A stretch of 64,000 nucleotides of DNA, taken from Bradymonas sediminis. GTDB lineage: Bacteria; Myxococcota_A; Bradymonadia; Bradymonadales; Bradymonadaceae. Below the pieces are notes generated by a model. The model did no database searches. It was not told the DNA's origin and worked only from the letters and a program-made list of their open reading frames with translations. This document shows positions 147 to 28,594 of the stretch, piece by piece; the first letter of the stretch is position 1; each line of letters starts with the position of its first letter. The translations under genes and the position numbers were made by a program. The stretch lies in assembly GCF_003258315.1 (NCBI RefSeq), contig NZ_CP030032.1, forward strand, positions 2,581,804-2,645,803, read 5' to 3'.

Positions 147-215
147 AAGGATTATGATTTGAAGTGCCCCCCGGGCTTTGGTATAAAGCTCGCAGAACTT
201 CTTGCATAATTTAGC

Positions 216-251: not shown

Positions 252-271
252 CTACCTCACGCGGACGACGA

Positions 272-469: not shown

Positions 470-506
470 ACCGGCGTCGAAGTTTATCGCTTTGAGACCA
501 CAACAG

Positions 507-546
507 AAAAGCGGCCCCCACATCTTAGGATGTGGGGGCCGCTTTT
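507..546. terminator. Bidirectional terminator between convergent genes
   Basis: A near-perfect inverted repeat: AAAAGCGGCCCCCACATC is mirrored by GATGTGGGGGCCGCTTTT with a tiny loop. The A-run on the left and T-run on the right let it serve both the plus-strand small gene (ending 469) and the minus-strand lipoprotein (ending 658). Confidence 0.9.
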
Positions 547-657
547 CTTCTTGGCGCGAACCGACTCCTTTGCCGCGAACGAAGCGCCCGCTGTGCAGCA
601 GGTTCGCTGGCGCCCCCCGACGCGCCAGCGGCGGTCGAGTGGGCGCGCGGTGCCCGG

Positions 658-2307
658 TCAGGGTGCCGGGTGCACCGCGATATTCTCGACCGACTCGGAG
701 ATGGTCAGGTCGCCGATCCAATCGTGGTCTTTGCCGTTTCGAAGCACGCGCCACAGGTCATAGTTTTGCTGGGCGAATTGCTCACGGTCCACGTTCGGGT
801 TGGTCGCGGCGAAGGCGATATCATTGCCGTCCGGCGAGACCAGGGCCTCGAGGATATAGGGCGAGCAATTGGTGACGTCGGGCATGGCGTTGCCCTCATC
901 CCAGCAAAGATTGGCGTCAAACCCGGTGTCGGGGTTGCCCCAGACGACGCTAAAATCTTTGGCGCGCGGGTTGATCTTAATGATATCGCTGTCGCCAACC
1001 ATGCCCTCACTGGTGCAGTCGCGACGCGCCACGCCGTAGAGGTTTCCGGAGTTGTCAAAGCTGACCGGACCGTCAAATTTCGTGTAGTGATAGGTCGGGT
1101 CGTCGGCGCTCAGGTCACAGCCGCTTCGGGGGGTGTCGCCTGGCACAGCGCGCTGGTACGGCGTATCGGACAGGCCGACGGGTACACGCGCCGGGATACA
1201 CTCCGACACCGACTCACCGCCGGGCTGGTAGCACTGATGAACGCCCCCGCAGTCGCTGTCGGAAGCACATTCTTCGCCAAGCGTCGCGAGGTTATCCAGG
1301 TCGAGGAAGTGGGCCGTCAACTCGATGACCGAGCAGAAGTTATTGGCGCCGCAAACCTTGACCGGGCCGGAGCAATCCGCCGCGGTTTCGCATTCTTGGT
1401 AGTCGTTCGGGGCGTTGACGACGAAGGCCAAAAGCTTGCCGTCCGGCGACACCGCGGTCGGCATGGTGGAGCCATAGTAACTACCGGCGCCGCCGGCATA
1501 ATTCACACCATTGAGCGTATAAACCGACTCAAGCGCAGCGCTGGTGAAGGCGCCGACTTTAAGCTCGAGCGTGTCGAGGGTGGGGGTGAACGCGAACGCG
1601 ACGTCGGCGTCCGGGTCGACGTGCCAGCCACCGGCGAGGCTGTCTTCGCCGCCGCCGACCATCGCGATCTCACGCTCTGAGCCGCCCGCGCCCAGCGAGA
1701 GGAAATACGAGGTGCCGCCCTTGTTATAGGTCAGGCCATTGCCCGCCGCGCTGATCGAGGTCACCCCGGTCGCGACCTGTGTTCCGGCGCCCTGGAGCTC
1801 AAAATTCTCAACCTCAACCGCGAAGAGATTCAAGCCCTGCGGGGCGTTCGGGTCGATCTCGGCCCAGGCGTAATATTTCATATCTTCGGTCAGCCAGCAC
1901 CCGCGGTCGCAGGGGTGGTCGGCGTCGCCGAGTTGGTAGTCGGTGCCATCGGCGGTTGAGCGAACGTGCAGATATTTGGTCGACGCCGTCTTATTCTCGC
2001 GAATATAGGAGATATAATAGTCATCGGCGGTGACGACCTCTCCTTCCCCACCCCCGTCATTATTGGTGGTGGCGTCCGGCGAGTTATTATTGGAGCCGGT
2101 GGTCGGCGTGACGCACACCTGATCTCGGCAGACAAGACCCTGCTGACAATCCTTGCCGACGGTGCAACTCTCGCCCTCTTTTGCGCCCGCGTCCGAGTCG
2201 TCGGAGCAGCCCACGCCCAGGCTCAAGCAGCCCATCAATACACCCGCGTAGAGAGCCGATGTCGGCGCTCGAAGGGAAAATAGATTTCTCAAATCTGTCG
2301 ATTTCAT
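658..2307 (-). CDS. PD40/TolB-like lipoprotein with Cys-rich motifs
   Basis: The 549-residue protein starts with a lipoprotein signal peptide. I chose the ATG at 2307 because it puts the lipobox (LGVGC) about 30 residues in; the open frame extends further upstream, to 2394. After the lipid-anchored Cys comes a short Cys pair region (GESCTVGKDCQQGLVCRDQVC), a pattern common in myxobacterial and bradymonad surface proteins. An Asn/Gly/Glu linker follows, then a long beta-rich body. Blocks such as 'SPDGKLLAFV' and 'SPDGNDIAFAATNP' are typical of PD40/TolB beta-propeller blades. Two further Cys clusters interrupt the propeller at about residues 310-380. It is likely anchored in the outer membrane. 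The substrate or partner is unknown, and no enzyme motif is seen. Confidence 0.8.
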   Translation of the reverse strand: MKSTDLRNLFSLRAPTSALYAGVLMGCLSLGVGCSDDSDAGAKEGESCTVGKDCQQGLVCRDQVCVTPTTGSNNNSPDATTNNDGGGEGEVVTADDYYISYIRENKTASTKYLHVRSTADGTDYQLGDADHPCDRGCWLTEDMKYYAWAEIDPNAPQGLNLFAVEVENFELQGAGTQVATGVTSISAAGNGLTYNKGGTSYFLSLGAGGSEREIAMVGGGEDSLAGGWHVDPDADVAFAFTPTLDTLELKVGAFTSAALESVYTLNGVNYAGGAGSYYGSTMPTAVSPDGKLLAFVVNAPNDYQECETAADCSGPVKVCGANNFCSVIELTAHFLDLDNLATLGEECASDSDCGGVHQCYQPGGESVSECIPARVPVGLSDTPYQRAVPGDTPRSGCDLSADDPTYHYTKFDGPVSFDNSGNLYGVARRDCTSEGMVGDSDIIKINPRAKDFSVVWGNPDTGFDANLCWDEGNAMPDVTNCSPYILEALVSPDGNDIAFAATNPNVDREQFAQQNYDLWRVLRNGKDHDWIGDLTISESVENIAVHPAP

Positions 2308-2563
2308 AGCGTAATCCAGCAATTTTCGTGTGTGAACCCATGCCCTCGACGGCGTCGAAGCGCGGATATCGTGATTTATCAGGAAATTAGTCAATCGGTG
2401 TCATGCATGACACGATTGTAATTCGTCGCCAAACACCTGCGACTATAGAAATGCAGGGGCTTCGAATCAAGCGGGAGTGGGCATAATCTCGCGAATCTGC
2501 GCCAGGGAAGGCGCGAGTATGCCCCGAAATCGAGGCCGGCAGGCGGGAAGTCGAAGCGGCGGC

Positions 2564-4024
2564 CTATTTTCGAACGGCGAGATAAACCACATAGCCGTCG
2601 CGCAGGACCTTCAGGCGCACGAATTGCCCCTCGACAATCGAATTAAGGGCGTTGTCGAATTCAGACGAGTCGGCGACTTCGGCGTTGCCGACCTCGATGA
2701 TGACGTCTTTTCGGCGCAGCCCGGCGATATTGGCGGAGGAGCGGGTGCCGACCTTGGTGACCACGACGCCGCGGTGGCCCGAGGCGCCCAGTTCGTCGGC
2801 CAGGCTTCGGGTAAGCGGTTCGACCTCGACGCCAAATTCGGGGTGCAGGTTCGTCGAAGCCACCCTGGCCTGGCGGCCCGGAATCTTAGGAATCGTCTGG
2901 TCCGGCAATTTGCCCATCTTGACCGCGAGGGTGCGGCGCTCGCCGTCGCGCAAGACGTCGATGTCGACCACCCGCCCCGCCCCGGCGGTCGAGGAGAGCC
3001 AGCGTAGACTGACGCCGCTGTCCAGCGAGTCATTGTCAAAGCCCAGGACCACGTCCCCAACCTTGAGCCCGCCCCTGGCGGCGGGGCTCTCGGCGACGAC
3101 CTCGGTCACCACCGCCCCGGTGGCCGACTCCAGGCCAAAGGAATTCGCCAGGCGCATGTCCAGCGGCTGAACCCGAACGCCGAGCCAACTGCGCACCACA
3201 TAGCCGGTCTTGGCCAGGTGCGGCAGGATCGTCTTGACCACGCGGATGGGGATCGCAAAGCCGATGCCCTGGCCGTGTCGATTGATCGCGGTGTTTATTC
3301 CGATGACCTCGCCGCTCAGCGAGATGAGCGGCCCGCCCGAGTTGCCCGGGTTGATGGAGGCGTCGGTCTGAATAAAGTCGACATAATTTTCTTCTTGAAT
3401 GCCGAGGTCTCGCCGGTCCAGGGCGCTGATAATCCCGGTGGTCACGGTATGACTGAGGCCCATGGGGTTGCCGATCGCCAGGACGTGCTCGCCGGCGCGC
3501 AGGTGGGCGCTGTCGCCCAGCGCGATGGCTTCGAGTTTTTGTTTGGCTTCAATCTTGAGCAGGGCCACGTCGGTCTGAGGGTCCACGCCGACGATATGCC
3601 CGTCGAATTCGCTCTTATCGAGCAGGCGCACCTTCACCTCGTCGGCCCCATTGACCACATGATAATTGGTTAAAATATAGCCGTCGGGGTGGATGATAAA
3701 TCCACTGCCCTGGGCCAATCGGCGCGACTTTCGCTGGGGGGCGCCGAAGATCCCCGCGTGCGCGGAGCCGGCGTCATAGGTGACGATGAGGTTGACCACT
3801 GCGGGGCTGAGTTCGGCGGCCAGGTTGGCCAGGCTGGAGAATCGCAGCGGAGCGTCGGGGTCGATGCCGGGCTCGGCGCGCCCGTCAATCCACACCTTTT
3901 CGGGCGCCTCGGCGTTCGCCTGAGCCCGGGCAGGCGCGGCGAAAATCCCCTGTCCAACCAGGAGCGCTGCGCAGAGCATAAGGACGTGAACGGGGCGTGA
4001 AATCAGATTCATTTCGCGTTTCAT
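2564..4024 (-). CDS. HtrA/DegP-type periplasmic serine protease (S1C)
   Basis: A trypsin-fold protease of about 486 residues with two C-terminal PDZ domains, for periplasmic protein quality control. The signal peptide (hydrophobic core PVHVLMLCAALLVGQ, then AxA-like APARAQA) follows the chosen ATG at 4024. GAGGG lies 11 bases upstream of that ATG; another ATG at 4033 is too close to it. The catalytic triad is complete: His122 in LTNYHVV, Asp152 in QTDVALLKI and Ser229 in NPGNSGGPL. PDZ1 (about residues 280-370) contains the GVV(T/V)xVxxxSPAARGGL pattern. PDZ2 (about 385-486) contains GVVVTKVGTRSSANIAGL. The size and two-PDZ layout fit DegP/DegQ/MucD. It lies on its own between a TetR gene and a lipoprotein gene. 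Confidence 0.93.
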   Translation of the reverse strand: MKREMNLISRPVHVLMLCAALLVGQGIFAAPARAQANAEAPEKVWIDGRAEPGIDPDAPLRFSSLANLAAELSPAVVNLIVTYDAGSAHAGIFGAPQRKSRRLAQGSGFIIHPDGYILTNYHVVNGADEVKVRLLDKSEFDGHIVGVDPQTDVALLKIEAKQKLEAIALGDSAHLRAGEHVLAIGNPMGLSHTVTTGIISALDRRDLGIQEENYVDFIQTDASINPGNSGGPLISLSGEVIGINTAINRHGQGIGFAIPIRVVKTILPHLAKTGYVVRSWLGVRVQPLDMRLANSFGLESATGAVVTEVVAESPAARGGLKVGDVVLGFDNDSLDSGVSLRWLSSTAGAGRVVDIDVLRDGERRTLAVKMGKLPDQTIPKIPGRQARVASTNLHPEFGVEVEPLTRSLADELGASGHRGVVVTKVGTRSSANIAGLRRKDVIIEVGNAEVADSSEFDNALNSIVEGQFVRLKVLRDGYVVYLAVRK

Positions 4025-4283
4025 CGGTGTCATTTCCCTCAGGCGCGCCAGGCAGATGTTAATATCTAGCGTCCCAAGCAAAATTGAAGCGCTATAGACA
4101 TTACGGATAACGGGTAAAGAAGTGCCGGGGGGTAAAACAAATGAATCGGCCCCATTAATCCACGCCCTCTTCCCATGCTTGCACCGACTAAAGGTGTTCA
4201 CCAATCGTGGGGGCGCAACGCCCGGACGTCGGGGCGTGGTATCTCCTCAAAGAACCTGCGCTGAGCGCACCGGGCTCATCAAC

Positions 4284-4871
4284 TCAGCGGGCACCGAGCA
4301 TATCAGCGTAGAGTTCGGCGAGCGTGTCGAGGTAGGCCATACAGGTGCTCTCCCTGATTGAGCGCCCCTGCGACCGCTCCATCACCGCCCCGCCGTGGAT
4401 CGCGCCCAGAAAAGCAAGTGCAACCGCGCTAAAATCAACGTTTCGAATCACTCCGCGGCGATGCAGATTCGCAAGCCAATCGGCGACGGTTTCGATGATG
4501 GGCACCAGCGGAGAATTCTGCTCGCCATGGAGCAACTCGCTCGACACGATGCTCCATTGCATCGCGTACACGGTGCATATCGACTTGGGGAAAAACTCCA
4601 GTCCGACGCGCGCTACCTCACGCAGTTGGACGAGCAGCGGACGCTCGTCATCCGGCTGGGGAAGCTTCACGCCCCATTCCATTGTACTCAGCGGCTGAAG
4701 CGCCGCGACGACCAGGTTCGCTTTTCCGTCGAACCGCTTAAGCAATGCCTGAGCCGACACGTTCACCTGCTCGGCGATCGTCGAGGTCGGGACCTCCGGG
4801 CCGTACTCCAAAATACAGGCCCTCGCCGCCTCAATAATCTCTTCGTCTGACACCTTTTGGGGTCTCGCCAT
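4284..4871 (-). CDS. TetR/AcrR-family transcriptional regulator
   Basis: A 195-residue protein. The N-terminal helix-turn-helix of TetR type is clear: DEEIIEAARACILEYGPEVPTSTIAEQVNVSAQALLKRF at about residues 9-47, followed by a helical ligand-binding domain. The start at 4871 is preferred because GGTGAG lies just upstream; the open frame extends four codons further. The ligand is unknown. It is transcribed away from the AMIN-domain gene at 5416, with a 544-base intergenic region that holds a perfect inverted repeat (5262-5287). Self-regulation or control of a neighbour is possible but not shown. Confidence 0.88.
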   Translation of the reverse strand: MARPQKVSDEEIIEAARACILEYGPEVPTSTIAEQVNVSAQALLKRFDGKANLVVAALQPLSTMEWGVKLPQPDDERPLLVQLREVARVGLEFFPKSICTVYAMQWSIVSSELLHGEQNSPLVPIIETVADWLANLHRRGVIRNVDFSAVALAFLGAIHGGAVMERSQGRSIRESTCMAYLDTLAELYADMLGAR

Positions 4872-5415
4872 TTTTCTCACCACGGCAAAAGTTCTTTTTA
4901 TTACAATTATTACGCTTCAATTAATCCAACCTTGAAGCGGCGCACGCCATGCAACCCATCGACCAGACAATTTTATTCACGATGGGCGAATAGATTCAGC
5001 AGCACTCCTAAAAACCCAAACCCGATAGCCACCTCGATATTGGCCCTCAGTATCCGGAGAACAGGCGAAGGGAGTGCGGTTTGCCCGACGCGCCCATCGA
5101 GTCGATGCGTTCATCGCAAGGAGTGTGGAACGTAGGCACCCGCCTCCGATCTACCATTGGGTGGCCTATGCTCTTTCCACACGATATTCAAACTCAGTTT
5201 CTTGCGCTCCTGCTTCGGTATGAAACACATGTATGCAAATCGGAGACAAATGAGCAACTCTGGCGATAAAATTTCTTTTTTATCGCCATGCGTGTCACCG
5301 AGATATGCACGCTAAACTTGCTCTGCGCAAACTCTCGGGTGATACTGGGGCGAATAGAATTCTACTTCATTGAGCAGATTCGTGTTTCCCCGGGCGTCAA
5401 CTTAAGGTTTTTACG
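4872..5415. other. Long, lower-GC intergenic region with a decayed ORF fragment
   Basis: A divergent spacer of 544 bases between the TetR gene (minus) and the AMIN gene (plus). It starts with an AT-rich block (4885-4925). On the minus strand, codons from 5110 down to the stop at 4973 encode 45 residues including a credible membrane helix (core IEVAIGFGFLGVLLNLFA). There is no usable start codon and an in-frame stop lies directly upstream, so this looks like the decayed 3' end of a membrane-protein gene. No RNA gene was recognised. Confidence 0.4.
5262..5287. promoter_or_regulatory. Perfect 10-bp inverted repeat, possible operator
   Basis: GGCGATAAAA at 5262-5271 is mirrored exactly by TTTTATCGCC at 5278-5287 with a 6-base spacer. 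No T-run follows on either side, so a terminator is less likely than a protein-binding site. It lies about 130 bases upstream of the AMIN gene start and about 390 bases upstream of the TetR gene start. The binding protein is unknown. Confidence 0.4.
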
Positions 5416-6180
5416 ATGAATTTATTGGGTCAACGCATCTTCTTCGCCGGTGTCGCGGCGATCACAGTGGTCGGTCTCGCGTCACCCGTGGCCGCGCAAC
5501 AAATCCATCGCTATGGCGAGGCGCCGGCGGGCTCCGCGGGCACCACGCAGGGCGTGTCGGCGCAGGGAGGGAGCGCTGCCAGCCCGACGTCCCCGGCGGC
5601 CCGACAGGACGGCCAAGCCAGCGAAGAGCCGGCGGGCCACTCCGGTGAGGTACGCATGTCCGCGGCGGGCCGCGTCAACAACCCGGGCGCCCGCCAGACC
5701 CTCGACCTCACGATCGACAAGCTCTATCGCGGCGTGATCCCGGGCATGCGCGACAGCGTCGCGCACCTGAGCCGGGCGCGCACCAAAGGCCAGGACGAGT
5801 CGAATCGCAATGAATTAACCTGGCTGGGGTTTGAGCCCACCGACGCCTACACCCGCGTGTTCTTCCAGACCGCGCGCAAGGCCGACTATAAGATCCTGCG
5901 CAAGCAGAACCCCGCGCAGGTCGAGATCACGCTAAATAATACCGAGATCGCCGCGCGCAATTTCAGCCGCTTCATTGACACGAGCTTTTTTGAGCGCAAC
6001 GTCAAACGTGTTGAGACGACCAAGATCGACGCGTCGACCCTGAAGATCACCATCGAGTTGGGCAATTTTGTCCAACCCACCGTGCGTGAGTCCGACAATT
6101 ATGTCTATTTTGACTTCCCAAATGACTCGGCGAAGTCGGCCGCGCCGACGCGCACCGAGTCCGCAGCCCCCCTTGATTGA
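5416..6180 (+). CDS. Exported AMIN-domain-like protein
   Basis: A 254-residue protein with a Sec signal peptide (hydrophobic IFFAGVAAITVVGLA, then SPVAAQQ, about residues 8-28). A Gly/Ala/Ser/Pro-rich disordered stretch runs to about residue 90. A beta-rich C-terminal domain follows at about residues 130-240 (WLGFEPTDAYTRVFFQT, VEITLNNTEI, LKITIELGNFVQPTVRE). This pattern resembles AMIN domains, which target periplasmic proteins such as PilQ and AmiC to peptidoglycan or septa. There is no amidase or secretin domain, so a binding or scaffold role is the most that can be inferred. The gene is monocistronic and ends at a terminator. Confidence 0.75.
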   Translation: MNLLGQRIFFAGVAAITVVGLASPVAAQQIHRYGEAPAGSAGTTQGVSAQGGSAASPTSPAARQDGQASEEPAGHSGEVRMSAAGRVNNPGARQTLDLTIDKLYRGVIPGMRDSVAHLSRARTKGQDESNRNELTWLGFEPTDAYTRVFFQTARKADYKILRKQNPAQVEITLNNTEIAARNFSRFIDTSFFERNVKRVETTKIDASTLKITIELGNFVQPTVRESDNYVYFDFPNDSAKSAAPTRTESAAPLD

Positions 6181-7133: not shown

Positions 7134-9670
<2,537 letters not shown>

Positions 9671-9746
9671 TCGGCGCCGCGCGGACGGCGCTCTCCCTGC
9701 CCATGGCGTCACCCCCGAGTTGCAATAAAGCGTCCTGATTCACCCC

Positions 9747-9774
9747 AAACCCTCCGGAGAAATCCGGAGGGTTT
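9747..9774 (+). terminator. Terminator of the queA-tgt operon
   Basis: AAACCCTCCGGA and TCCGGAGGGTTT form a perfect 12-bp stem with a GAAA loop. It lies about 75 bases after the tgt stop. Confidence 0.85.
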
Positions 9775-9931
9775 GGCGCTTCTTGAAGCGCCGCCCCTGT
9801 AATACGCGCTGCGCGGCCCCGAGTAATTGATTCGCTTATCTCAAAAAAATTTCACCTATGATTACGTTGAATTTTGATTTCATGTCATGAAGTACGTCCT
9901 AATCAACACACTAAAAATTGGACGAAATACT

Positions 9932-12241
9932 ATGCGTGCCTCGACGCCGTACTCCAGCGTATTCGTTTGCCTTTCTCTGTCTTTGCTTGTGGCCTGCGGG
10001 GACGCGAAGGTGAACACCTCCGTGCTCGGGCCGAGCTCGGATAAAGACGTCGGAGAAAGCGATCCGGACACCTCGAATACGCCGGATGCCGGCGGTGAGG
10101 CCGACGTCGAAGACCCGGATACATCCAGCGCTTCGCAGATTGATTATCAACCCTGCGTGCTGGGCGAAGCCGCCCCGTGGGATGAATGCGCCGAGGAGGA
10201 CATCTTTGACTTCGGCACGGTGTCATCGCACGACACCGTGATGCGACGCATGCGCATCGATAACCTGGGCGGCGCGCCGATTACGATCACCGGCGCCACC
10301 ATCGACGACCCGAATTTCGAGATCGTCGCCCTCACCTACACCACGGACGACCCGCCCACCTCGAGCGAAGTCGCGTTCCCGGCCGAACTTCCCGCCGGTG
10401 AGTCGCTCTTTATCGAAGTCACCCTGAAGAATCTCAACGCGGGGCAAGCGCTCGTCTTCGAGGCGGACTCGCTCGAGCTCGAGATCGACACCGGCGCCGA
10501 CACTCCCGAAACCGTCTCCGTCGAGCTCATCGGGGACTATGGAACGTGCGGGACGGGGTTCGCAAATTGCGACGATAACGTCGGCAACGGGTGCGAGGTC
10601 AACCTGAACGCGGACCCGCTGCATTGCGGCACCTGCCGCAACGCCTGCTCGGATGCAAACGGCGAGGCGGTGTGCGCGGGCGGGCAATGTGGAACGACCT
10701 GCAGCCCGGGGTTCGACAGCTGTGATAGCGATATCGCCACCGGGTGTGAGACCGATATCCAAACCGTCGACGATTGCGGCGGATGCGGCGTGACCTGCGA
10801 ATTCGACAACGCCAGCGCCCAATGCAGCAGCGGCACCTGCGAGTTCGACGCCTGCGCCACCGGCTGGATGGACCTCAACGCCGACCTCAGCGATGGCTGC
10901 GAGTACGAGTGCACCTTTCAGAGCAACCACGACCTGCCCGATATCACCACCACCGACGCCAATTGCGACGGCATCGACGGGGACATCAGCCGGGGCATAT
11001 TCGTGGCGACCACCGGCTCAGACACCACCGGCGCCGGCACCATGGCGTCTCCCTACCAGAGCATCGGCTACGCGCTCACCGTGGCGAGTCAGGTCAGCGG
11101 GCTGGACCACCTCTACGTCGCCGCTGGCGAGTACAACACCCAGCTTATCCTGTTTAACGGCATCTCGATCTACGGCGGATACGACCCATCAAACGCGTGG
11201 TCGCGCGATATCAACAACGTCACCCGCATCCATTATACCGGCGACAGCGGCCGAAAGATCGCGATGCGCGGCGAGAATATCACCTCGCCGACCACGCTGG
11301 GGATGCTCACGATCAGCACCAACGCGGTCACCAGCGACAATGGAAATAATACCGCGCTTCATTGCGTGAATTGCAGCGGGTTGATCCTGCAAAATAACAA
11401 TTTCATCCCGGGCGATGCAGGCGATGGTATGTTCGTCGGTCCGCCCAACCCGGGCGGCGGAGCCGGAGGCGTCGGTGGCAACGGGCGGTATAGGAACAGC
11501 ACACGCGGCGCGGGCGGTAGCGGCGGGTTATCAGGATGCGGGCGAAACGGGGGAAAAGGAGGCGCGGGCGGAGCTGCCCAGCTGGGACCTGCCTCGTGGG
11601 GACTCGCAGGCATGAGCGGTGTCTCCGCAACACCTGGTGGCGCTGGCACACCGGGAGTCCGCAAAAGCAATTACGGTGCCATCATTATCCCCCAACCGGG
11701 TAAACCCGGCGCTCATGGCGCTCCCGCGACCCACGGCCAACACGGCTCGGGCGGAAGCGGCGGCCAAGTGGTCAACGGCTTCTGGCAAGGCGTCAGCGGC
11801 GGAGACGCAACCGACGGCACCCACGGGAATGGTGGCGGCGGCGGCGGCGGCGGCGGCTGTGCTGGACGCGGCGGAAAGAAGGGCAGCTACGGCGGAAGCG
11901 CCTTCGGCCTCTTTCTGATCGACTCTACCGGCATCACCCTGTCAAATAACACGATTCTTGCTGGCAATGGTGGCAATGGTGGCGCAGGGACCAACGGAAG
12001 CAACGGCTCTCCAGGGGCGAGCGGTCGACCTGGCGGCATCTTCCAGGGTAATAACCTTCGAACCACAGGCGGCGCAGGCGGCAATGGCAGCAGCGGCGGC
12101 AACTCGTACGGAATCTTTACCCTCAACTCCGACCCCAACGGTATCCTGCCCGGCAACAATACGATCACCGCCGGTCAGCCCGGCGCGGGCGGAACCTCGC
12201 TCGGCAATCCCGGCGCAAACGGGGTCGCCCAGGCGTTTTAA
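9932..12241 (+). CDS. Gly-rich lipoprotein 1 of a tandem trio (ASH-like, Cys-rich, MopE-like motif)
   Basis: A lipoprotein of 769 residues; the ATG at 9932 places the lipobox LVAC at residues 19-22. Order of parts: a disordered Asp/Ser/Pro linker; an ASH/choice-of-anchor-like beta domain (IFDFGTVSSHDTVMRRMRIDN...); Cys-rich repeats with two 'CGxCxxxC' cores (CGTCRNAC, CGGCGVTC); a MopE-like metal-binding motif (DANCDGIDGD). A beta-helix-like segment follows (GIFVATTGSD... ASPYQSIGYAL... DHLYVAAGEY... GISIYGGYD), then a Gly-rich tail of about 280 residues. The beta-helix start resembles DUF1565/parallel beta-helix proteins. It is likely exposed on the cell surface. The function is unknown; metal binding or adhesion is conjecture. 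The downstream paralogues share the same order. Confidence 0.82.
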   Translation: MRASTPYSSVFVCLSLSLLVACGDAKVNTSVLGPSSDKDVGESDPDTSNTPDAGGEADVEDPDTSSASQIDYQPCVLGEAAPWDECAEEDIFDFGTVSSHDTVMRRMRIDNLGGAPITITGATIDDPNFEIVALTYTTDDPPTSSEVAFPAELPAGESLFIEVTLKNLNAGQALVFEADSLELEIDTGADTPETVSVELIGDYGTCGTGFANCDDNVGNGCEVNLNADPLHCGTCRNACSDANGEAVCAGGQCGTTCSPGFDSCDSDIATGCETDIQTVDDCGGCGVTCEFDNASAQCSSGTCEFDACATGWMDLNADLSDGCEYECTFQSNHDLPDITTTDANCDGIDGDISRGIFVATTGSDTTGAGTMASPYQSIGYALTVASQVSGLDHLYVAAGEYNTQLILFNGISIYGGYDPSNAWSRDINNVTRIHYTGDSGRKIAMRGENITSPTTLGMLTISTNAVTSDNGNNTALHCVNCSGLILQNNNFIPGDAGDGMFVGPPNPGGGAGGVGGNGRYRNSTRGAGGSGGLSGCGRNGGKGGAGGAAQLGPASWGLAGMSGVSATPGGAGTPGVRKSNYGAIIIPQPGKPGAHGAPATHGQHGSGGSGGQVVNGFWQGVSGGDATDGTHGNGGGGGGGGGCAGRGGKKGSYGGSAFGLFLIDSTGITLSNNTILAGNGGNGGAGTNGSNGSPGASGRPGGIFQGNNLRTTGGAGGNGSSGGNSYGIFTLNSDPNGILPGNNTITAGQPGAGGTSLGNPGANGVAQAF
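11831..11857 (+). repeat. GGC triplet run in Gly-rich lipoprotein 1
   Basis: About eight consecutive GGC/GGT codons encode poly-Gly immediately before CAGRGGK. Similar runs occur at about 14533-14560, 14602-14628, 17083-17103 and 17146-17173 in the two paralogues. Slippage in such a run would change length by whole codons and keep the frame. Confidence 0.75.
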
Positions 12242-12270
12242 TCGCCTGACCTGACCCCCCGTGCCTCACC

Positions 12271-12303
12271 AAACCCCATCGGATAACTCCGGTGGGGTTT
12301 CTT
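12271..12303 (+). terminator. Terminator after Gly-rich lipoprotein 1
   Basis: AAACCCCATCGG and CCGGTGGGGTTT form a stem with one mismatch and a 6-base loop, followed by TTTCTT. It separates lipoprotein genes 1 and 2 into independent transcripts. Confidence 0.75.
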
Positions 12304-12427
12304 CGGTTCGTGCCGCGCTGCCCCCCAAGCGTTGCGCCAAAATATAAACTGACGCGGATTTGCACGCGTGCGCGCACTCTAGTATATTTCAGGAAAGCAC
12401 AACTTCTATACAAAATGGATGGCTAAT

Positions 12428-15040
12428 ATGCGTCACTTAAAGTCTTTCTCGAAATTAGTTATTTGCCTGTCGCTGCTCCTCGGGGTGGGCTGCGCGGAGT
12501 CCGGTATAGGCGACTCCACACAGCCCAACATTGAGGAGACTGACACCGCTCAAGAGACGCGCGACGCGGGCAGCGGGGATGCGTCGACGCCCGACCCCGA
12601 AGATATTGTCTCCCCCAGCGACGCCGCGGGTGACGGTGATGCAAGGGACGGCTCATCCCCGGATGACGCAGATATTCAGACGGATGGTGACACCGCGAGT
12701 GACGCTGGCGCCACGACGGTCGAGTATCTCGCGTGTGTGCTGGGCGAAGCGGAGCCCTGGAGCGAATGCGCGGACCCCGAGATCTTGGACTTCGGCACGG
12801 TCATGGCCGGCGACACCGTGGTGCGAAGCTTGCGCATCGATAATATGGGCGAGGCGGACCTGATGGTGACAGACGCCAGCATCGCGGACCCAAATTTCAG
12901 CATTCGCGCGCTCACCTTCACCCGGGACACCCCGCCCGACTCCGCCGAGGTCGCCCTCCCCGCGGCGCTGCTCGCCGGGGAGGCGCTGTTTATCGAGGTC
13001 AGCGTCAGCGGCACCGGCACCGGCTCCTCGCTTGAATTTGCCGCTCATATGCTCGAAATTCTGGTGGACGCCGGCGGCACCGACCCGGAAACGCTGTCCG
13101 TTGAGATCAGAGGCGGCTACGGAAATTGCGCGACCGGCTATTATGACTGCGACGGGGACGCGAGCAACGGCTGCGAGGTTCACCTGGACACCGACCCGCT
13201 CAACTGCGGCGCATGCGGCAGCGTGTGCGCGGCCGATAACGCCAGCTCGACCTGCGTCAGCGGCCAATGCGCGGTCGCCACATGCGACGCGGGCTTCGAC
13301 GATTGCGACATGGACCCGAGCAACGGGTGCGAGGCCGAGCTCGACTCCATCGATGACTGCGGAAGCTGCGGCAATGTCTGCGGGTTTAATAACGCCAGCG
13401 CCCTGTGCGACGGCGGGGCCTGCGCGCTCGACGCCTGCGAGCCGGGCTTCGAGGACTGCAACGCCAACCAGGTCGACGGCTGTGAGGTCGACACCAATTC
13501 GAACCTGAGCAACTGCGGCGGCTGCGGCAATGTCTGCGCCCTGGCCCACGCCCAAACGCAATGTGTCGCGGGCGCCTGCGAGCTCGACACCTGCCTGGCC
13601 GGCTGGACCGACCTTAACGGCGACCCCAGCGACGGCTGCGAATACCAATGCACCTTCCAGAGCGCCAACGACGCCCCGGACGCCAACGGCGTCGACGCCA
13701 ATTGCGACGGCATCGACGGCGACATCACCCGCGGCATCTTCGTGGCGACCACCGGGTCGGACTCCGCCGCGGGCACCATGAGCGCGCCGTTTGCGACCAT
13801 TACCCGTGCGCTCACCGAGGCCAGTAGCGTCAGCGGCCTGGACCATATCTATGTGGCGACCGGGCAATACGACGGACAAATCCAACTTGTGAACGGCATC
13901 TCCATCTTCGGCGGCTACGACGCCACCGACAGCTGGCGTCGCAACGGCGGCGCGACCACGCGCATCTTCTATAACGGAAATGTCGGCCCAAAAATCGCGG
14001 TGCGCGGCGATACGATCTCCTCACCCACGACCCTCGGGATGCTCGACATCGCCACCGGCCCGGTGAACAGCGGCAATGGCAGCAACTACGCGCTTTACTG
14101 CAAAAACTGCACAAAATTGACGATTCAGAACTCCACGATCACCTCCGGCGCCGCCGGCAATGGTCAAAACGGCGTCAACGGTACGACGCCGGCAGATGGT
14201 CGCCCTGGCAATACGGGCGGCGCGGGCTCCTGCGACGGCTCCGGCTGGGGCTCTGGGGGCTCCGGCGGCACATCCTCCTGCGGCCGAAACGGCGGCAACG
14301 GCGGGCGCGGCGGCAGCGAAGGCAAAAATGATGGCTATACCGGCGGCACCGGCGCCATCGGCTCGTCCGGCGGCAGCAAGGGGCGCTCCAGCGGCGGCCA
14401 CGGTGGCAATGGTGTCGGCGATCGCCATGGCACCCACGGAACCAGCGGCGCGGGCGGCGCCGGCGGCGCAGTGCTCGCCGGGTATTGGGCCGGCAACGAC
14501 GGCCGAAACGGCACCATCGGCACGCACGGCCATGGCGGCGGTGGCGGCGGCGGCGGCGCGGGTCAAGGCGGCTGGAATGTGAACGACGGCTCCGGAAACG
14601 GCGGCGGCGGCGGCGGCGGCGGTGGCTGCGCGGGCACCGCCGGGACCGGCGGACAGGCCGGCGGAAGCTCCTTTGGCATCTTTTTGGTCAGCTCGACCGG
14701 GATCGTGCTGACCAATAACAGCATCACGTCGGGCAACGCCGGCAACGGCGGCCGCGGCGGGCAAGGCGCCCCGGGAAGCAGCGGCGGCGCCCCCGGCGCG
14801 GGCAACCGCTATTGTGACGACGAAGTCGGCGCCGGCGGGAACGGCGGCCGCGGTGGAAACGGCGGCAACGGCGGCCACGGTGGCGGCGGCGCAGGCGGCC
14901 ACTCCTACGGCATCTACCGCGACAACACCCTGGTGAGCGGAACACTCCCGGGCACCAACACCATCATCACCGGCCAGCCCGGCAGCGGCGGCGCCTCCAT
15001 GGGCCTCTCCGGCACCAACGGCTTCGCGGCAAGCTATTAA
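12428..15040 (+). CDS. Gly-rich lipoprotein 2 of a tandem trio
   Basis: 870 residues from the ATG at 12428; an in-frame ATG at 12419 is also possible. The lipobox is LGVGC. Parts are in the same order as in the gene before it: acidic linker, ASH-like domain (ILDFGTVMAGDTVVRSLRIDN), Cys-rich repeats, MopE-like motif (DANCDGIDGD), beta-helix-like region (GIFVATTGSDSAAGT... DHIYVATGQY... FGGYD) and Gly-rich tail. It differs in having three 'CGxCGxxC' cores (CGACGSVC, CGSCGNVC, CGGCGNVC) and the longest tail, with runs of consecutive Gly. The last residues (GQPGSGGASMGLSGTNGFAASY) match the ends of both paralogues. This points to a conserved C-terminus. Function unknown. Confidence 0.83.
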   Translation: MRHLKSFSKLVICLSLLLGVGCAESGIGDSTQPNIEETDTAQETRDAGSGDASTPDPEDIVSPSDAAGDGDARDGSSPDDADIQTDGDTASDAGATTVEYLACVLGEAEPWSECADPEILDFGTVMAGDTVVRSLRIDNMGEADLMVTDASIADPNFSIRALTFTRDTPPDSAEVALPAALLAGEALFIEVSVSGTGTGSSLEFAAHMLEILVDAGGTDPETLSVEIRGGYGNCATGYYDCDGDASNGCEVHLDTDPLNCGACGSVCAADNASSTCVSGQCAVATCDAGFDDCDMDPSNGCEAELDSIDDCGSCGNVCGFNNASALCDGGACALDACEPGFEDCNANQVDGCEVDTNSNLSNCGGCGNVCALAHAQTQCVAGACELDTCLAGWTDLNGDPSDGCEYQCTFQSANDAPDANGVDANCDGIDGDITRGIFVATTGSDSAAGTMSAPFATITRALTEASSVSGLDHIYVATGQYDGQIQLVNGISIFGGYDATDSWRRNGGATTRIFYNGNVGPKIAVRGDTISSPTTLGMLDIATGPVNSGNGSNYALYCKNCTKLTIQNSTITSGAAGNGQNGVNGTTPADGRPGNTGGAGSCDGSGWGSGGSGGTSSCGRNGGNGGRGGSEGKNDGYTGGTGAIGSSGGSKGRSSGGHGGNGVGDRHGTHGTSGAGGAGGAVLAGYWAGNDGRNGTIGTHGHGGGGGGGGAGQGGWNVNDGSGNGGGGGGGGGCAGTAGTGGQAGGSSFGIFLVSSTGIVLTNNSITSGNAGNGGRGGQGAPGSSGGAPGAGNRYCDDEVGAGGNGGRGGNGGNGGHGGGGAGGHSYGIYRDNTLVSGTLPGTNTIITGQPGSGGASMGLSGTNGFAASY

Positions 15041-15097
15041 TCACGCAGCCTCGGCTCAGGCATCTTCGCAAACGCGCTGACGCACTGACTCCGCCCT

Positions 15098-15129
15098 AAA
15101 CGCCTCCGGATTCCTCCGGAGGCGTTTTT
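15098..15129 (+). terminator. Terminator after Gly-rich lipoprotein 2
   Basis: AAACGCCTCCGGA and TCCGGAGGCGTTTTT form a perfect stem with a 3-base loop and a T-run. Confidence 0.9.
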
Positions 15130-15287
15130 AGTGGCCCCAACAACCGCTCCCAACCTGCGAATCCCCCATCAAACCAATATATTGGAGAAAACCCACCTCC
15201 GAGGGTTGATTCGTTGCATGCACCATGCTCTTTAGCTAAGTTGAAAGCGTCATGCGCACACCATTTACCCAGTGAGCCATTTACGAA

Positions 15288-17579
15288 ATGCGAACATTCA
15301 TCCATAAATCAAAATTATCCCTCTTATTGTGTCTAACCCTGCTCTGCCTGATCGAAGTCGGTTGCGCAGAATCCGAGCTGGACACCCAGGTCAACGGTAA
15401 CCTCTCGGACGCAGGCCATGGCGACGTCGAGCAGCCTGACGCCGACCCAAGTGACGCCGGGGCCGACGCCGAGCTGGGCGACTCGGGCAATGACGCCCAG
15501 GACGCGGACACACTCGAGGAGGAAGGCGAGGTCTCCTACGCGGCGTGCGTGATCGACGCGGCGGCGCCCTGGGAGGACGTCGCCTGGGGAGATTGCCAGG
15601 CCGAAACCACGCTGGACTTCGGCTTCGTCGCCGACGGCGCCACGCTGAGCCGTCTGGTGCGCATCGATAACCTGGGCACCGTCGATATTCGCCTCAACGA
15701 GGCGACCGTTCGCGACCCGAACTTCACGATTCAGCCCCGCCGCTACTCCACAGGAAGCGCGCCGGTGGCCACCGACACGAGCCTTCCGGATGACCTGGCC
15801 GCGGGCGAATCGTATTTCTTCGAGGTCAGCGTCTTCGGCTCGGGCACCGCGGGTGATTTCGCCTCGGACGCCCTCGAGATTTTGCTGCTGCCGGCGACCG
15901 CCAGCGCGCGCGAAACCCTGTCCATCCCGCTCACCGGCGCCTACGAGAGCTGCTCGGCCAACACCGCCGACTGTGACGGGAACCCGAGCAACGGGTGCGA
16001 GACCGATACGGGCTCAAGCCTGGACCACTGCGGCGGCTGCAATATCGCCTGCGAATTCCCCGGCGCCAGCGCAACCTGTGACGCCGGCGTGTGCGAGTTC
16101 CTAAAATGCGACCCCGACACCGTCGACCTCAACGGCGACGTCGCCGACGGCTGTGAGTGCACCATCACCGACACCACCGACATCCCCGACGCCGCCGGCG
16201 TCGACAGCAACTGCGACGGGTTCGACGGGGATCTTTCGCGCGGAATCTTCGTGGCGCCCACCGGCTCCGACGCCGCCGCGGGCACCCAGGCCGACCCGCT
16301 CAAGACCATCGCCAGCGCGCTGGCCATGGCCGGCAGCGCCAGCGGTCTCGACCATATCTACCTGGCCACCGGCCAATATAACGAGCAGGTCAACCTGGCC
16401 AACGGCGTCTCGATCTTCGGCGGCTATGACCCCGCCAACAACTGGACCCGCAGCGGCAGCCCGACCTCCAAAATCTTCTATGATGGCCCCGGCGAGCGCA
16501 TCGCGGTGCGCGGCGTCGGCGTCACCCTTACGACCTACCTGGGTATGGTCGAAATCGTCACCGCCAACACGTCGGTGCCCGAGCAGAACAACTACGCGAT
16601 GCATTGCAAAAATTGCACGAAGCTGATCATTCAGAACTCGAAGATCACCGCCGGAAACGCCGGCCCAGGCGTCGACGGCACCAACGGGCAATCTGGACTC
16701 GTGGCCTTTGGCGGCGGCCTGAAGGGAAGCGTGGGCGGCGACGGCGACCCGGACGGCTTCGGCTATGGCGCGGGCGGCAGCGGGGGCGCATCCGCGTGTG
16801 GCCGCAACGGCGGCGACGGCGGCCGCGGCGGGTACCGCGGAGATAACCCGGGCCAAAAAGGCAAGGTCGGCCTGCTGGGCTCGAACGGCGGCGACGGCGG
16901 CGACGGCGACGGCTCGACCTGGTTCCCCATCGGCGAAGATGGGTTCAACGGCGCCAATGGCGCGGTGGCGGCCAACGGGCAAAACGGCTCGGGCGGCTCC
17001 GGCGGACAGGTCACCAACGACTTCTGGACTGGCCGCGCGGGCGCCGACGGCAGCGACGCTGAGCATGGCAACGGCGGCGGTGGCGGCGGCGGCGGCGGCG
17101 GCCAGGGCGTGCCGCTGGACTCCTCGCTCAACGGCTCCGGCAACGGCGGCGGCGGGGGCGGCGGCGGTGGCTGCGGCGGGCTGAAAGGAACCGGCGGCAC
17201 CGCCGGTGGCAGCTCCTTCGGGCTCTTCTTGGTGAACTCCACCGGCATCGTGCTCCACAGCAATACGATCACCGCAGGCAACGGCGGCAACGGCGGCAAG
17301 GGCGGCAGCGGCGGCAACGGCAGCAACGGCGCCCTGGGTGCGGCTGGCGGCCAGGTCTCCACGGACGAAGTTGGCGGCGGTGGCAAGGGCGGCAACGGCA
17401 GCAATGGCGGCGACGGCGGCCATGGCGGCGGCGGCGCGGGCGGCGTCTCCTACGGACTCTACCGCCAGAACACCACCGTCGACCTGCCCAATAGCAATAT
17501 CATCAACGCCGGAAGCGGCGGCATTGGCGGCACCAGCGCCGGGAATAGCGGCTCCAATGGCATCGCAGCGCCCTACTAA
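15288..17579 (+). CDS. Gly-rich lipoprotein 3 of a tandem trio
   Basis: 763 residues. The signal peptide ends in a lipobox-like IEVGC at residues 22-26. It has the same domain order as the two genes upstream, but only one 'CGGCxxxC' Cys core (CGGCNIAC) remains before the MopE-like motif (here DSNCDGFDGD). The beta-helix-like part (GIFVAPTGSDAAAGT, DHIYLATGQY, SIFGGYDPANNW) is followed by the Gly-rich tail. Cys-repeat number therefore falls 2, 3, 1 across the trio, which suggests gain or loss of repeat units after gene duplication. The ATG at 15288 has only a weak upstream purine stretch. Function unknown. Confidence 0.83.
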   Translation: MRTFIHKSKLSLLLCLTLLCLIEVGCAESELDTQVNGNLSDAGHGDVEQPDADPSDAGADAELGDSGNDAQDADTLEEEGEVSYAACVIDAAAPWEDVAWGDCQAETTLDFGFVADGATLSRLVRIDNLGTVDIRLNEATVRDPNFTIQPRRYSTGSAPVATDTSLPDDLAAGESYFFEVSVFGSGTAGDFASDALEILLLPATASARETLSIPLTGAYESCSANTADCDGNPSNGCETDTGSSLDHCGGCNIACEFPGASATCDAGVCEFLKCDPDTVDLNGDVADGCECTITDTTDIPDAAGVDSNCDGFDGDLSRGIFVAPTGSDAAAGTQADPLKTIASALAMAGSASGLDHIYLATGQYNEQVNLANGVSIFGGYDPANNWTRSGSPTSKIFYDGPGERIAVRGVGVTLTTYLGMVEIVTANTSVPEQNNYAMHCKNCTKLIIQNSKITAGNAGPGVDGTNGQSGLVAFGGGLKGSVGGDGDPDGFGYGAGGSGGASACGRNGGDGGRGGYRGDNPGQKGKVGLLGSNGGDGGDGDGSTWFPIGEDGFNGANGAVAANGQNGSGGSGGQVTNDFWTGRAGADGSDAEHGNGGGGGGGGGGQGVPLDSSLNGSGNGGGGGGGGGCGGLKGTGGTAGGSSFGLFLVNSTGIVLHSNTITAGNGGNGGKGGSGGNGSNGALGAAGGQVSTDEVGGGGKGGNGSNGGDGGHGGGGAGGVSYGLYRQNTTVDLPNSNIINAGSGGIGGTSAGNSGSNGIAAPY

Positions 17580-17614: not shown

Positions 17615-17652
17615 ACGCCCCGGATATCCACGCGATATCCGGGGCGTTTTTG
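17615..17652 (+). terminator. Terminator after Gly-rich lipoprotein 3
   Basis: ACGCCCCGGATATC and GATATCCGGGGCGT form a 14-bp stem with a short loop, followed by TTTT. Confidence 0.88.
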
Positions 17653-17799: not shown

Positions 17800-19008
17800 A
17801 TGCGCATATTTGCACTGTCTGGCAGCGTGATGTTGGCTGGCCTCGCCCTTTTAGGAGCACTCCAAACCCCGCATAACCCGCATATCCCGGCGCCCTCGCC
17901 GCCGGCGGCATCACCGACCACCGAAGCCCAGCCTCCGCCCGCCGATGCCGCGCCCGCCGATGCCGCGCCCGCTTACGCCAAGATTCGCGCGCTCACCTAC
18001 AATATCTTTATGCGCCCCGCCCCCGTAAATTGGCGCGACCGCAACGCCTGCCGGGCCCAGCGCATCGCCGACTACTTCAGCGATGACGCCCACGCCCACG
18101 ATATCATCGTGCTCACCGAATCCTTCGAGCCCGCGTCGACCCAGATCCTCGCCAGGTCCACCGCGCAGACCTACCCTCATCAAATACTGAGCCAACCGCC
18201 AGCGCGCGGCCTTAGCATCAACGGGGGCGTGTCGATCCTGAGCCCGCACGCCATCGAGGATTGGGAGGCGGTCGCCTTTGAGCGGTGTCACGGGAAGTGG
18301 AATGACTGCCTGGCCACCAAGGGCTTCGTCTGGGCGCGCATACGCGTCTCGAAGAGCCTGAAATTCAATGTCCTCGCCACGCACCTGAACTCCGGCGGGG
18401 GCGCGGGGGCCCGCGCCACCCGACGCGCGCAACTGGCTCAGATCCGCGCCTTTCTCACCACGCACCCAAGCATCGCGCGCTGGCCGACGCTCCTGATGGG
18501 CGACCTCAATATCAATGGTCTGCGCTGGGAGGAGCCGACCCCGGGCGAAGATCGACTAAGCGAATACGCCGACGCGATGCTCTTCCTGGCAGGCGCATGT
18601 CCGCACTGCGACGCCCTGCCCGTCGACACCTACCGCGCAGCCCAGGCGCCCTGGCGCTATGATGAGCCCCAAACACGCGCCGCCAACACCTATAATTGCG
18701 TCGACGAATCGCTCCAGCCCTGCAAGAGCCCAAACGCCGCCGAACACTGGAAGCGCCGGCTTCGCCTCGACTATATTCTAGACTTCGGCGCCCCGCGCGA
18801 CGCCCCGGCTCTCGAGACCCGAACGCTCGCCTCCGCGACCCTCGAGATGGCCGATGACTCGTGCGCCACCCAGTATTTATCCGACCATCGCGCCCTCGAA
18901 ACCACCCTGGAGATGGGGCAATTTCCCCTGGCAAACGCCCAGTTGGATAGGCAGGACACCGCCCAAACTCCCTCGGAGGCATCCAAAGACGAGAAGGCTT
19001 CAAACTAA
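17800..19008 (+). CDS. Exported endonuclease/exonuclease/phosphatase-fold enzyme, sphingomyelinase-like
   Basis: 402 residues, with GGAGGGAGG directly upstream of the ATG. The N-terminal hydrophobic stretch (SGSVMLAGLALLGAL) is an export signal without a lipobox; a Pro/Ala-rich linker follows to about residue 60. The EEP catalytic motifs are present in order: LTYNIF (Asn68), VLTESFEP (Glu107), LATHLNSGG, LMGDLNINGL, LDYILDFG and the C-terminal SDHRALE. The layout suits neutral sphingomyelinase/phospholipase C-type members better than DNase I, because of the 'ATHLNSGG' and short loops, but the substrate cannot be fixed from sequence. Asp/Asn/His metal and catalytic residues all appear intact. 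Monocistronic. Confidence 0.83.
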   Translation: MRIFALSGSVMLAGLALLGALQTPHNPHIPAPSPPAASPTTEAQPPPADAAPADAAPAYAKIRALTYNIFMRPAPVNWRDRNACRAQRIADYFSDDAHAHDIIVLTESFEPASTQILARSTAQTYPHQILSQPPARGLSINGGVSILSPHAIEDWEAVAFERCHGKWNDCLATKGFVWARIRVSKSLKFNVLATHLNSGGGAGARATRRAQLAQIRAFLTTHPSIARWPTLLMGDLNINGLRWEEPTPGEDRLSEYADAMLFLAGACPHCDALPVDTYRAAQAPWRYDEPQTRAANTYNCVDESLQPCKSPNAAEHWKRRLRLDYILDFGAPRDAPALETRTLASATLEMADDSCATQYLSDHRALETTLEMGQFPLANAQLDRQDTAQTPSEASKDEKASN

Positions 19009-26515: not shown

Positions 26516-28594
26516 CTAATACAAGTCCCTAATCGTGCACAACCCGCTATTGACCATTGATTGGCTCACCAGCGGCGGTTGCTCAGCCGGCCTGGCCGGC
26601 ATCAACTCATCGACCTCGTAGACATGAAAGCCCGGCGAGCCCGCCTGGTTCCAGTGGATTCGCCCAACATCCCAGAACTGATTGCCCCGCGCCATCGGCT
26701 TATTAAGCGCCTCGAACACAAGGTTTTCGTTGATATAAATTCGAATCGTTGCGTAGGCGGTGCCGAACGCCTCACGATAATAGTGCACCCCCACCCCGTA
26801 CCACTCGCAATTCACCGGGTCGTCCAGGGTGATATTCTCCGGCCCCATTCCATCGATATCATCGATGTCGAGTCGCGGACTCTCGGGATTCCAGATGCCG
26901 CCGCCGCTATTATTCGAGTTTCGAAAATAGATATCATAGGGCGACTCGAACCATTTTCCGGGCCCTAACTTCACAAAATGAAGGTCGAGGTCGCTGCCAT
27001 TGGCGTCGGTCTCGTCGGGGTCCTCGGGGTTATGCCAGGTCAGCTCGATATGGATCTTCTTATTCGGGATCGCCACGATGGTCGCCACCGCCTGATTGCA
27101 GGAGGTGAACCCTTCGTTGTCGACGACTTCAAGCCCCAACTTATAGGTACCGGTCAGCAGCGCGCGAAACTCGCGCCTTGAGGGATCCGCGTCGGCGCTG
27201 TCTTCGACCGTGGGGCCAAGGTCCACCTCGGTGCCGTCAGGCACCTGCAGCGCGGTCCACTCATAGCTCACGACCTGGCCGTCGGGGTCGTGACTGCCGG
27301 AGGCGTCGAGCACGATATAATCAAGGGGCGTGGCGCTGATCGTGGGGCGCCCCGCGCCGGTCTCGCCGCGCACCTTTGCCTGCAGGCTTGCCACCGGGCA
27401 AACACCGTCTGAGCCGCGCGCGACCAGGTCCACTTCGAACTCAGGTTGAGCCGGGTCGTTGCTCTCGATGAGCAGCTTCCCCGTGTCACTTCCAACCTCG
27501 CGCGGGGCGTAGTCCACGCGAAAGGTCGTGTCCTCGTTGGGCGCGATGGTTACGCTCTCGGCCAGTGAACCATCGGCCTCAACGGCCCATGAGCCAAAAT
27601 CAAGTGAGAACTCGTTGCTGGCGGAGTTCTCGAGGATTTCGATATTTGAAATCACCAACGCCTCGGAGCCACAATTGGTCACGAGCACCGTGTGAGGACG
27701 AACGGCCCCGACAGGGACCGGACCAATATTGCGCACGCTGCCGTCCACCATAATGCAAGGAGCCACCGCGTTGGCCAGCACATCCACGTATTGGATGCCA
27801 CGCCCGCTTTCTTGGGTACCCTCCTGGGTGTCATTTGATTCCACCCGAATCTTGCCAACGCCGGCGCTTCCGGCGCCTTGCGGCCTGTAATGAACCATCA
27901 CCTCGAGGCCATAGGCGCTCGGGTTCTGCGCGGCGAGCGAAGCCTGGTAGGGTTGCAAAACAACCTCGCTGTCTGACAGCGGGTCAATCGAGAACTCCGA
28001 ACTTCCCGAATAGCCAACGTCATAGATAATCAGCGGCGCGGTGCCGTAATTATAGATCGTCAACGGGCGTTGCCGGGCCTGACCGACCGGAGGGAAACTC
28101 ACGGTGCGCGGCGAAAACGAGATCTGGGGCCGGTTGGCCTGGGTATCGACATTGAGCGAAAACGGGGTCTCTCGCCCGTAATTCGGGTCACTGCTCACCA
28201 CGTCGATCTTCGCACGATTAGCTTCACCGGTCGCGCGATACTCGACCTTAACGGTGCGTGACTCCTCGGCCGCGAGCTTGAACTCAGCCGTAGGCTTGTC
28301 CAGCAATTTCAGGTCAGCGACGCGGCCGCCATCGCGCGCAGCGAGCGCGACGCTATAGATCGTGAGCGACTCGCTGGGATGGATGTTGGTAAGCGTGACA
28401 TCTTGCACCTGGGTCTCGCCCAGGGCGACCTGCGAAAAAGAGACGTTCAAGGGCTGAACCAAGAGCCGGCCCGAGGTCCCCGTGACGATGCTCCCTTCGC
28501 CCTCAGAGTCGCTACACGCGCCCAGCGTAAGCCCCAAGGCAAGACAACTCAGCAGAATAACCAACGCCCCAGAGTGCCGCTTGAAAAACTGCAT
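26516..28594 (-). CDS. Lipoprotein with ASH-like repeats, PKD domain and YfaP-like C-terminus
   Basis: 692 residues from the ATG at 28594 (GAG eight bases upstream; the frame opens at 28615). The signal ends at the lipobox LTLGAC. Three ASH/choice-of-anchor-D-like beta domains follow ('VSFSQVALGETQVQDVTLTN', 'VSFPPVGQARQRPLTIYNYG', 'RNIGPVPVGAVRPHTVLVTNCG'). A PKD/Ig-like domain is next (LDASGSHDPDGQVVSYEW). The C-terminal region holds 'HIELTWHNPED... SDLDLHFVKLGPG', which resembles YfaP/DUF2135 modules. It is probably a lipid-anchored surface protein for carbohydrate or protein binding. No catalytic motif was found. It is close upstream of the pseudokinase-PP2C gene (87 bases), so the two may be co-transcribed. 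Confidence 0.8.
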   Translation of the reverse strand: MQFFKRHSGALVILLSCLALGLTLGACSDSEGEGSIVTGTSGRLLVQPLNVSFSQVALGETQVQDVTLTNIHPSESLTIYSVALAARDGGRVADLKLLDKPTAEFKLAAEESRTVKVEYRATGEANRAKIDVVSSDPNYGRETPFSLNVDTQANRPQISFSPRTVSFPPVGQARQRPLTIYNYGTAPLIIYDVGYSGSSEFSIDPLSDSEVVLQPYQASLAAQNPSAYGLEVMVHYRPQGAGSAGVGKIRVESNDTQEGTQESGRGIQYVDVLANAVAPCIMVDGSVRNIGPVPVGAVRPHTVLVTNCGSEALVISNIEILENSASNEFSLDFGSWAVEADGSLAESVTIAPNEDTTFRVDYAPREVGSDTGKLLIESNDPAQPEFEVDLVARGSDGVCPVASLQAKVRGETGAGRPTISATPLDYIVLDASGSHDPDGQVVSYEWTALQVPDGTEVDLGPTVEDSADADPSRREFRALLTGTYKLGLEVVDNEGFTSCNQAVATIVAIPNKKIHIELTWHNPEDPDETDANGSDLDLHFVKLGPGKWFESPYDIYFRNSNNSGGGIWNPESPRLDIDDIDGMGPENITLDDPVNCEWYGVGVHYYREAFGTAYATIRIYINENLVFEALNKPMARGNQFWDVGRIHWNQAGSPGFHVYEVDELMPARPAEQPPLVSQSMVNSGLCTIRDLY

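Follow-up and report, generated by a model that had tools for sequence, protein, structure and literature searches.

In a 64,000-nucleotide stretch of Bradymonas sediminis DNA (contig NZ_CP030032.1, positions 2,581,804 to 2,645,803; hereafter the window, to which coordinates refer unless stated otherwise), three tandem open reading frames (ORFs) on the + strand encode members of a lipoprotein family in which a glycine-rich head of nearly constant length follows a stalk of highly variable length. The genes are referred to here as copy 1 (9932-12241, 769 residues, or 784 from an upstream ATG), copy 2 (12419-15040, 873 residues), and copy 3 (15288-17579, 763 residues). Their products would be outer-membrane lipoproteins made up, in order, of a lipid anchor, a disordered acidic tether, an ASH/PapD-like immunoglobulin-like (Ig) domain, a disulphide-rich rod, an Asp-rich junction loop, and a head of ~470 residues. 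Because the head is fixed, the membrane-tied stalk adjustable, and the copies diverged and separately transcribed, we propose that these proteins act as the adhesin or contact-recognition heads of a predator, a proposal whose chances we judge to be even. Killing by B. sediminis requires contact with the prey, and kin discrimination occurs in its group in the absence of a type VI system (PMC11509652), so that binding to prey, kin, or substrate surfaces would be a natural role, with each genome presenting several separately transcribed variants whose heads may differ in exposed side chains and loops.

Aligned end to end, copies 2 and 3 are 52% and 49% identical to copy 1, and the alignment bears out the proposal of an earlier sequence-only reading that the three are paralogous lipoproteins with one domain order, subject to two corrections that concern a supposed MopE-like motif and the unity of the head. 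The head extends from a DxNCDGxDGD motif to the C-terminus and measures 480 ± 37 residues in 79 complete homologues, whereas the part ahead of it in the same proteins measures 338 ± 204 residues (range, 50-915); head length is constant regardless of the number of Cys cores in the stalk. Within the trio, the head comprises 445 residues in copy 1 (10904-12238, with DANCDGIDGD at 10955-10984), 465 in copy 2 (13643-15037, borne out by an AlphaFold model and conservation in homologues, with DANCDGIDGD at 13694-13723), and 474 in copy 3 (16155-17576, with DSNCDGFDGD at 16203-16232). The copy 1 head lacks ~24 residues, namely one poly-Gly segment and a hairpin that copies 2 and 3 possess, and its bundle may therefore contain fewer helices than theirs.

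Conservation within the head is consistent with a folded domain. Across an alignment of 56 heads, whose median identity to copy 2 is 41%, at least 90% of the sequences have a residue at 296 of the 315 Gly-rich columns, meaning that indels are few, and the junction-loop residues D18, N20, C21, D22, G23, D25, and G26 are invariant. Beyond this loop, the near-invariant non-Gly residues (F33, Y76, Y92, W98, R100, Cys, and Ser) look structural. Glycine recurs with a period of three (autocorrelation of 0.64 at lag 3 versus 0.40-0.43 at lags 1, 2, 4, and 5), and between the Gly segments there are beta-helix rungs of a common pattern at head residues 147-174 and 342-369 and, more weakly, at 420-449. 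The first two of these are 30% identical within each protein, whereas windows drawn at random from the tail reach 11% ± 6%. Rungs thus continue to the C-terminus, so that what had been read as a beta-helix start followed by a separate Gly-rich tail is one domain. Judged by alignment and model together, the Gly-rich region is a conserved domain and not a low-complexity tail. Its pattern does resemble PE_PGRS, as the sequence-only reading had it, but the silk-like half of that comparison fails, and near-constant length, few indels, and a predicted local distance difference test (pLDDT) score of ~95 rule out a silk-like, low-complexity, or variable PGRS-like tail. A collagen-like structure is ruled out by composition, since proline makes up 1.5% of X and 6.1% of Y positions of the Gly segments and glycine itself 39-41% of both; the collagen and phage matches returned by profile and viral searches look compositional.

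The beta-helix and the Gly-rich part, whose structure the sequence-only reading had proposed to predict, were modelled with AlphaFold for the copy 2 head using 56 homologues, which gave a mean pLDDT of 95.4, a predicted template modelling score of 0.86, and no residue below 50. The N-terminal rungs occupy 13733-14164 (strands at head residues 31-167 in the model) and are followed by the period-3 Gly segments of head residues 168-460 (14144-15022), between which rungs of the beta-helix intervene at 14666-14749 and 14900-14989. DSSP assigns the Gly segments to neither helix nor strand, so that the model predicts an ordered, non-alpha, non-beta chain with glycine at each third residue, as in a polyproline-II/polyglycine-II bundle. 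We therefore picture the head as a right-handed parallel beta-helix whose Gly-rich excursions between later rungs would pack as polyglycine-II into a rigid bundle, because similar Gly-rich sequences pack in this way in PE_PGRS models, phage S16 gp38, Obg, and the snow flea antifreeze protein (PMC10216338, PMC13243192, PMC8409303). In Foldseek comparisons only the beta-helix part of the head found matches, and these were pectin-lyase-like folds (8tne, probability 1.00, root-mean-square deviation 3.4, 163 columns, E = 3.6e-3).

The stalk, by comparison with the head, varies widely. The earlier count of two, three, and one Cys cores in copies 1 to 3 was correct, with cores at 10547-10690 and 10700-10840 in copy 1 (10547-10840 overall), at 13127-13270, 13283-13423, and 13436-13579 in copy 2 (13127-13579 overall), and at 15951-16094 in copy 3. 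The underlying unit is a repeat of ~52 residues with eight cysteines and a DCDxDxxNGCE element. Two adjoining homologues in one relative (76000-93600 of its contig; ORFs 169-6177 and 8335-16998) are giants of 2003 and 2888 residues, with 20-21 and 35-38 units ahead of the same head, and over the family the stalk ranges from 0 to about 38 units. The number of units would thereby set the distance at which a fixed head stands off from the membrane. Expansion by unequal exchange had been suggested for these genes, and recent exchange of this kind finds no support: identity among the Cys cores of the trio is 36-53% and is no higher within one gene than between sister genes, and in the homologues with 38 and 21 units neighbouring units are no more similar than distant ones. 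Of the long gene-to-gene DNA repeats in the trio, the best two span 300 and 256 bases with 74-75% identity. On these comparisons, the Cys units are old and the variation in their number is real.

Ahead of the Cys cores, the putative ASH/PapD-like Ig domain lies at approximately 12725-13123 in copy 2 (block means of 56-87 in the AlphaFold model) and, by alignment with this modelled domain, at approximately 10145-10543 in copy 1. Its fold is predicted: Foldseek matched the copy 2 domain to the CEP192 ASH domain (6fvi) and central-pair HYDIN-type chains (7sqc) with probability 1.00 and E values of 2.6e-3 to 5e-3, and its Pfam scores of 12-15 bits fall below the cut-offs of 25-27. Elsewhere in the window, a large protein encoded at 26516-28615 on the minus strand contains Cep192/HYDIN-type Ig and PKD-like domains above the Pfam cut-offs, of the same ASH-like kind.

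At the membrane-proximal end, the copy 1 signal peptide (9932-9997) ends in a textbook lipobox, LVAC, with its lipidation Cys codon at 9995-9997, and the aligned Cys is invariant in the trio. The lipoboxes of copy 2 (GVGC; signal peptide 12419-12493, Cys codon 12491-12493) and copy 3 (EVGC; Cys codon 15363-15365) are weaker, with an atypical residue at position -3. A simple rule recognizes a lipobox-like signal in 56 of 74 complete homologues, copy 3 not being one of these. The copy 2 signal is followed by an acidic linker (approximately 12494-12724) that is predicted to be disordered (pLDDT of 31-35 over the first 80 mature residues). For copy 1, the start at 9932 is preferred, and the ATG at 9887 is less likely because its 15 extra residues are absent from the other copies. 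RNA folding located a strong hairpin after each gene, at 12271-12300 (z = -4.7), 15098-15127 (z = -5.3), and 17615-17647 (z = -5.6), and one more upstream of the trio at the end of the preceding tgt-like gene (9747-9774; -34 kcal/mol for 9740-9800, z = -6.2), all on the + strand, confirming that each gene has its own terminator as had been proposed. A simple terminator scan had returned none of these hairpins. With its own hairpin after each gene and one before the first, the trio probably forms three separate transcription units. The product of the gene directly downstream (17800-19008, + strand) is an endonuclease/exonuclease/phosphatase-family protein that scores below threshold against the bacterial sphingomyelinase model TIGR03395 (55.6 bits versus a cut-off of 248.2). 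No RNA elements were found.

The trio belongs to a large family. About six or seven further members occur in the same genome, giving about ten copies in all; those placed are a tandem pair at 1.55 Mb and single copies at 0.68, 2.95, 3.39, and 4.04 Mb, one of them weak. A same-genome member at 4036947-4040414 of the genome is split over two reading frames within its Gly-rich part and may be either a pseudogene or the product of a sequencing error. The search of related genomes that the sequence-only reading had proposed was made with a profile of the entry module, i.e., the DxNCDGxDGD motif plus the first beta-helix rungs, which detected the module in 54 of 57 genomes of the class, at 1-20 copies each, and in 145 of 237 genomes sampled across the phylum. 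Named homologues are for the most part from Myxococcota, Sorangium cellulosum among them. Homologues were also seen in assemblies labelled Lysobacterales, Rubrivivax, Planctomycetota, Gammaproteobacteria, Bdellovibrio, Polarisedimenticola, and Gemmatimonadetes, which could be attributed to any of the following: (i) a wider spread of the family, (ii) transfer, or (iii) mis-binned contigs. In the tree, the trio clusters with one relative's single closest copy in a supported group, and the other paralogues of the genome fall in other deep groups, which indicates that the three genes go back to an old duplication in place, inside a family that is older still and diverse. Neither the trio nor the heads reach the cut-off of a Pfam, NCBIfam, or PHROGs family that would describe them, sequence searches for a phage or plasmid origin gave no match, and the accessible parts of the literature searched, Tad-tip and Bradymonadia papers included, contain no account of such a family. 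On this evidence the family is undescribed, is present across the phylum, and merits a name.

Comparison with characterized systems suggests that the parts are of known kinds and that their combination in one lipoprotein, a polyglycine-II bundle with a beta-helix and a disulphide stalk, would be new. In the PE_PGRS proteins of Mycobacterium tuberculosis, a multigene family at the cell surface, a GGX-type Gly-rich domain is predicted by AlphaFold to form an ordered polyglycine-II bundle of 7 to 54 helices that tolerates indels (PMC10216338). The trio shares the GGX-type pattern and the multigene organization but has no PE domain in a Pfam scan, carries a lipid anchor, and alternates rungs with Gly segments, and its head is near-fixed in length where the PGRS domain is modular and variable. 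The long-tail-fibre adhesin gp38 of phage S16 contains ten helices, of which two central ones are poly-Gly (PMC8409303), and copies 2 and 3 likewise have two poly-Gly runs each; unlike in gp38, Obg, or the snow flea antifreeze protein, the head of the present family is joined to a beta-helix and a Cys stalk on a bacterial lipoprotein, and phage records gave no sequence match to it. Pectin-lyase-like proteins (pectin methylesterases, rhamnogalacturonan lyase, tailspikes, and the PfbA adhesin) match the local fold over ~160 head residues, but the rungs of the family are split by long Gly-rich excursions, conserved catalytic residues are absent, and there is no full-length match.

Profile models agree with the family over short regions. 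The MXAN_6577-like cysteine-rich protein model NF041328 has the same kind of Cys unit and scores ~20 bits against copies 1 and 2 (cut-off, 100), but is a model of 145 positions without the Gly-rich head. The LIC10774/LIC10365 family surface protein model NF047854 gives a local match over ~60 residues where the beta-helix is entered (E = 1e-7; 31 bits versus a cut-off of 380) and leaves the remainder unmatched; it also matches 13 of the 56 heads. The DxNCDGxDGD motif had been called MopE-like, and it does resemble Cu-binding_MopE (PF11617) as a short Asp/Gly-rich motif; that membership did not hold up, however, as PF11617 (cut-off, 27 bits) matched no trio copy at E ≤ 1 and one of the 56 heads (E = 0.009). 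Outside the trio, PF11617 matches this genome 40 times and that of a relative 120 times, and these matches make up a large set of Asp-rich proteins of their own.

Several observations weigh against a role in contact recognition. The lipoboxes of copies 2 and 3 are not textbook, the whole head has no match among solved structures (Foldseek; no PDB match at E ≤ 1e-3), and conserved gene neighbourhood is absent, the nearest neighbours of ~40 homologues falling into 99 Pfam families of at most three proteins each, with no shared function pointing to adhesion among the direct neighbours. In addition, the Cys cores were modelled at a pLDDT below 50 in the full-length model, in which three sequences covered them, and because of this the rigidity of the Cys-unit rod is an assumption of the proposal. 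It is worth considering what else such proteins might do. The large faces of flat Gly-rich bundles could associate with one another, and several copies in separate transcription units would permit tuning, so that the proteins might pack laterally into a protective or structural coat, comparable to a PE_PGRS "sail" or a silk-like layer, with no specific ligand. However, a constant length with few indels would not be expected of filler or of a silk-like layer, the very long stalks fit projection better than a flat layer, and the copies are diverse instead of uniform; we consider a coat unlikely. A role facing the periplasm, for instance as accessory lipoproteins or envelope scaffolds, might be suggested by the resemblance of the ASH domain to the scaffolding domains of HYDIN, CEP192, and PapD-like proteins. 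A stalk of 35-38 disulphide units seems more than the periplasm requires, though, and a fixed head with variable reach is a design for the exterior, making this a poor prospect.

More specific activities are also worth weighing. With rhamnogalacturonan lyase, pectin methylesterases, a GH87 glucanase, and phage tailspikes as its top PDB matches, the head could be a carbohydrate-active enzyme with a pectin-lyase-like beta-helix, acting on prey or environmental polysaccharides. Yet all of these matches lie at E > 1e-3 and cover the first third of the head only, and none of the conserved catalytic residues of pectin-lyase-like enzymes (acid/base or metal triad) was found across the 56 heads, so that an enzymatic function appears very unlikely. 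The binding of ice, minerals, or metals, either through an antifreeze-like flat Gly face or through Asp- and Cys-rich parts that would capture copper or calcium, draws on the fact that snow flea antifreeze proteins are polyglycine-II bundles (PMC8409303) and on the likeness of the invariant DxNCDGxDGD loop and the DCDxDxxNGCE units to calcium-binding loops. While the junction loop may indeed hold calcium, the failed PF11617 test weakens a copper reading, the even number of cysteines per unit suits disulphides, and metal sites would account for the stalk and not for a conserved 470-residue head; we regard this explanation as quite unlikely.

Few solved structures contain polyglycine-II bundles, and the known ones are mostly small or modular. 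Here, most genomes of the class and about 60% of the sampled genomes of the phylum share a near-fixed Gly-rich design combined with a beta-helix, and this design illustrates that a Gly-rich region of "low complexity" can be a strictly conserved domain. A bolder claim, which we offer tentatively and hold to be the less probable outcome, is that the head of the family is a new composite fold, with polyglycine-II bundles borne by the rungs of a beta-helix, and that such heads, set on stalks of 0 to ~38 units, form an interchangeable set for contact recognition in myxococcotal predation or kin recognition. In a phylum described as rich in predators, the family provides candidates for the surface proteins by which contact-dependent predators may recognize their prey or kin.
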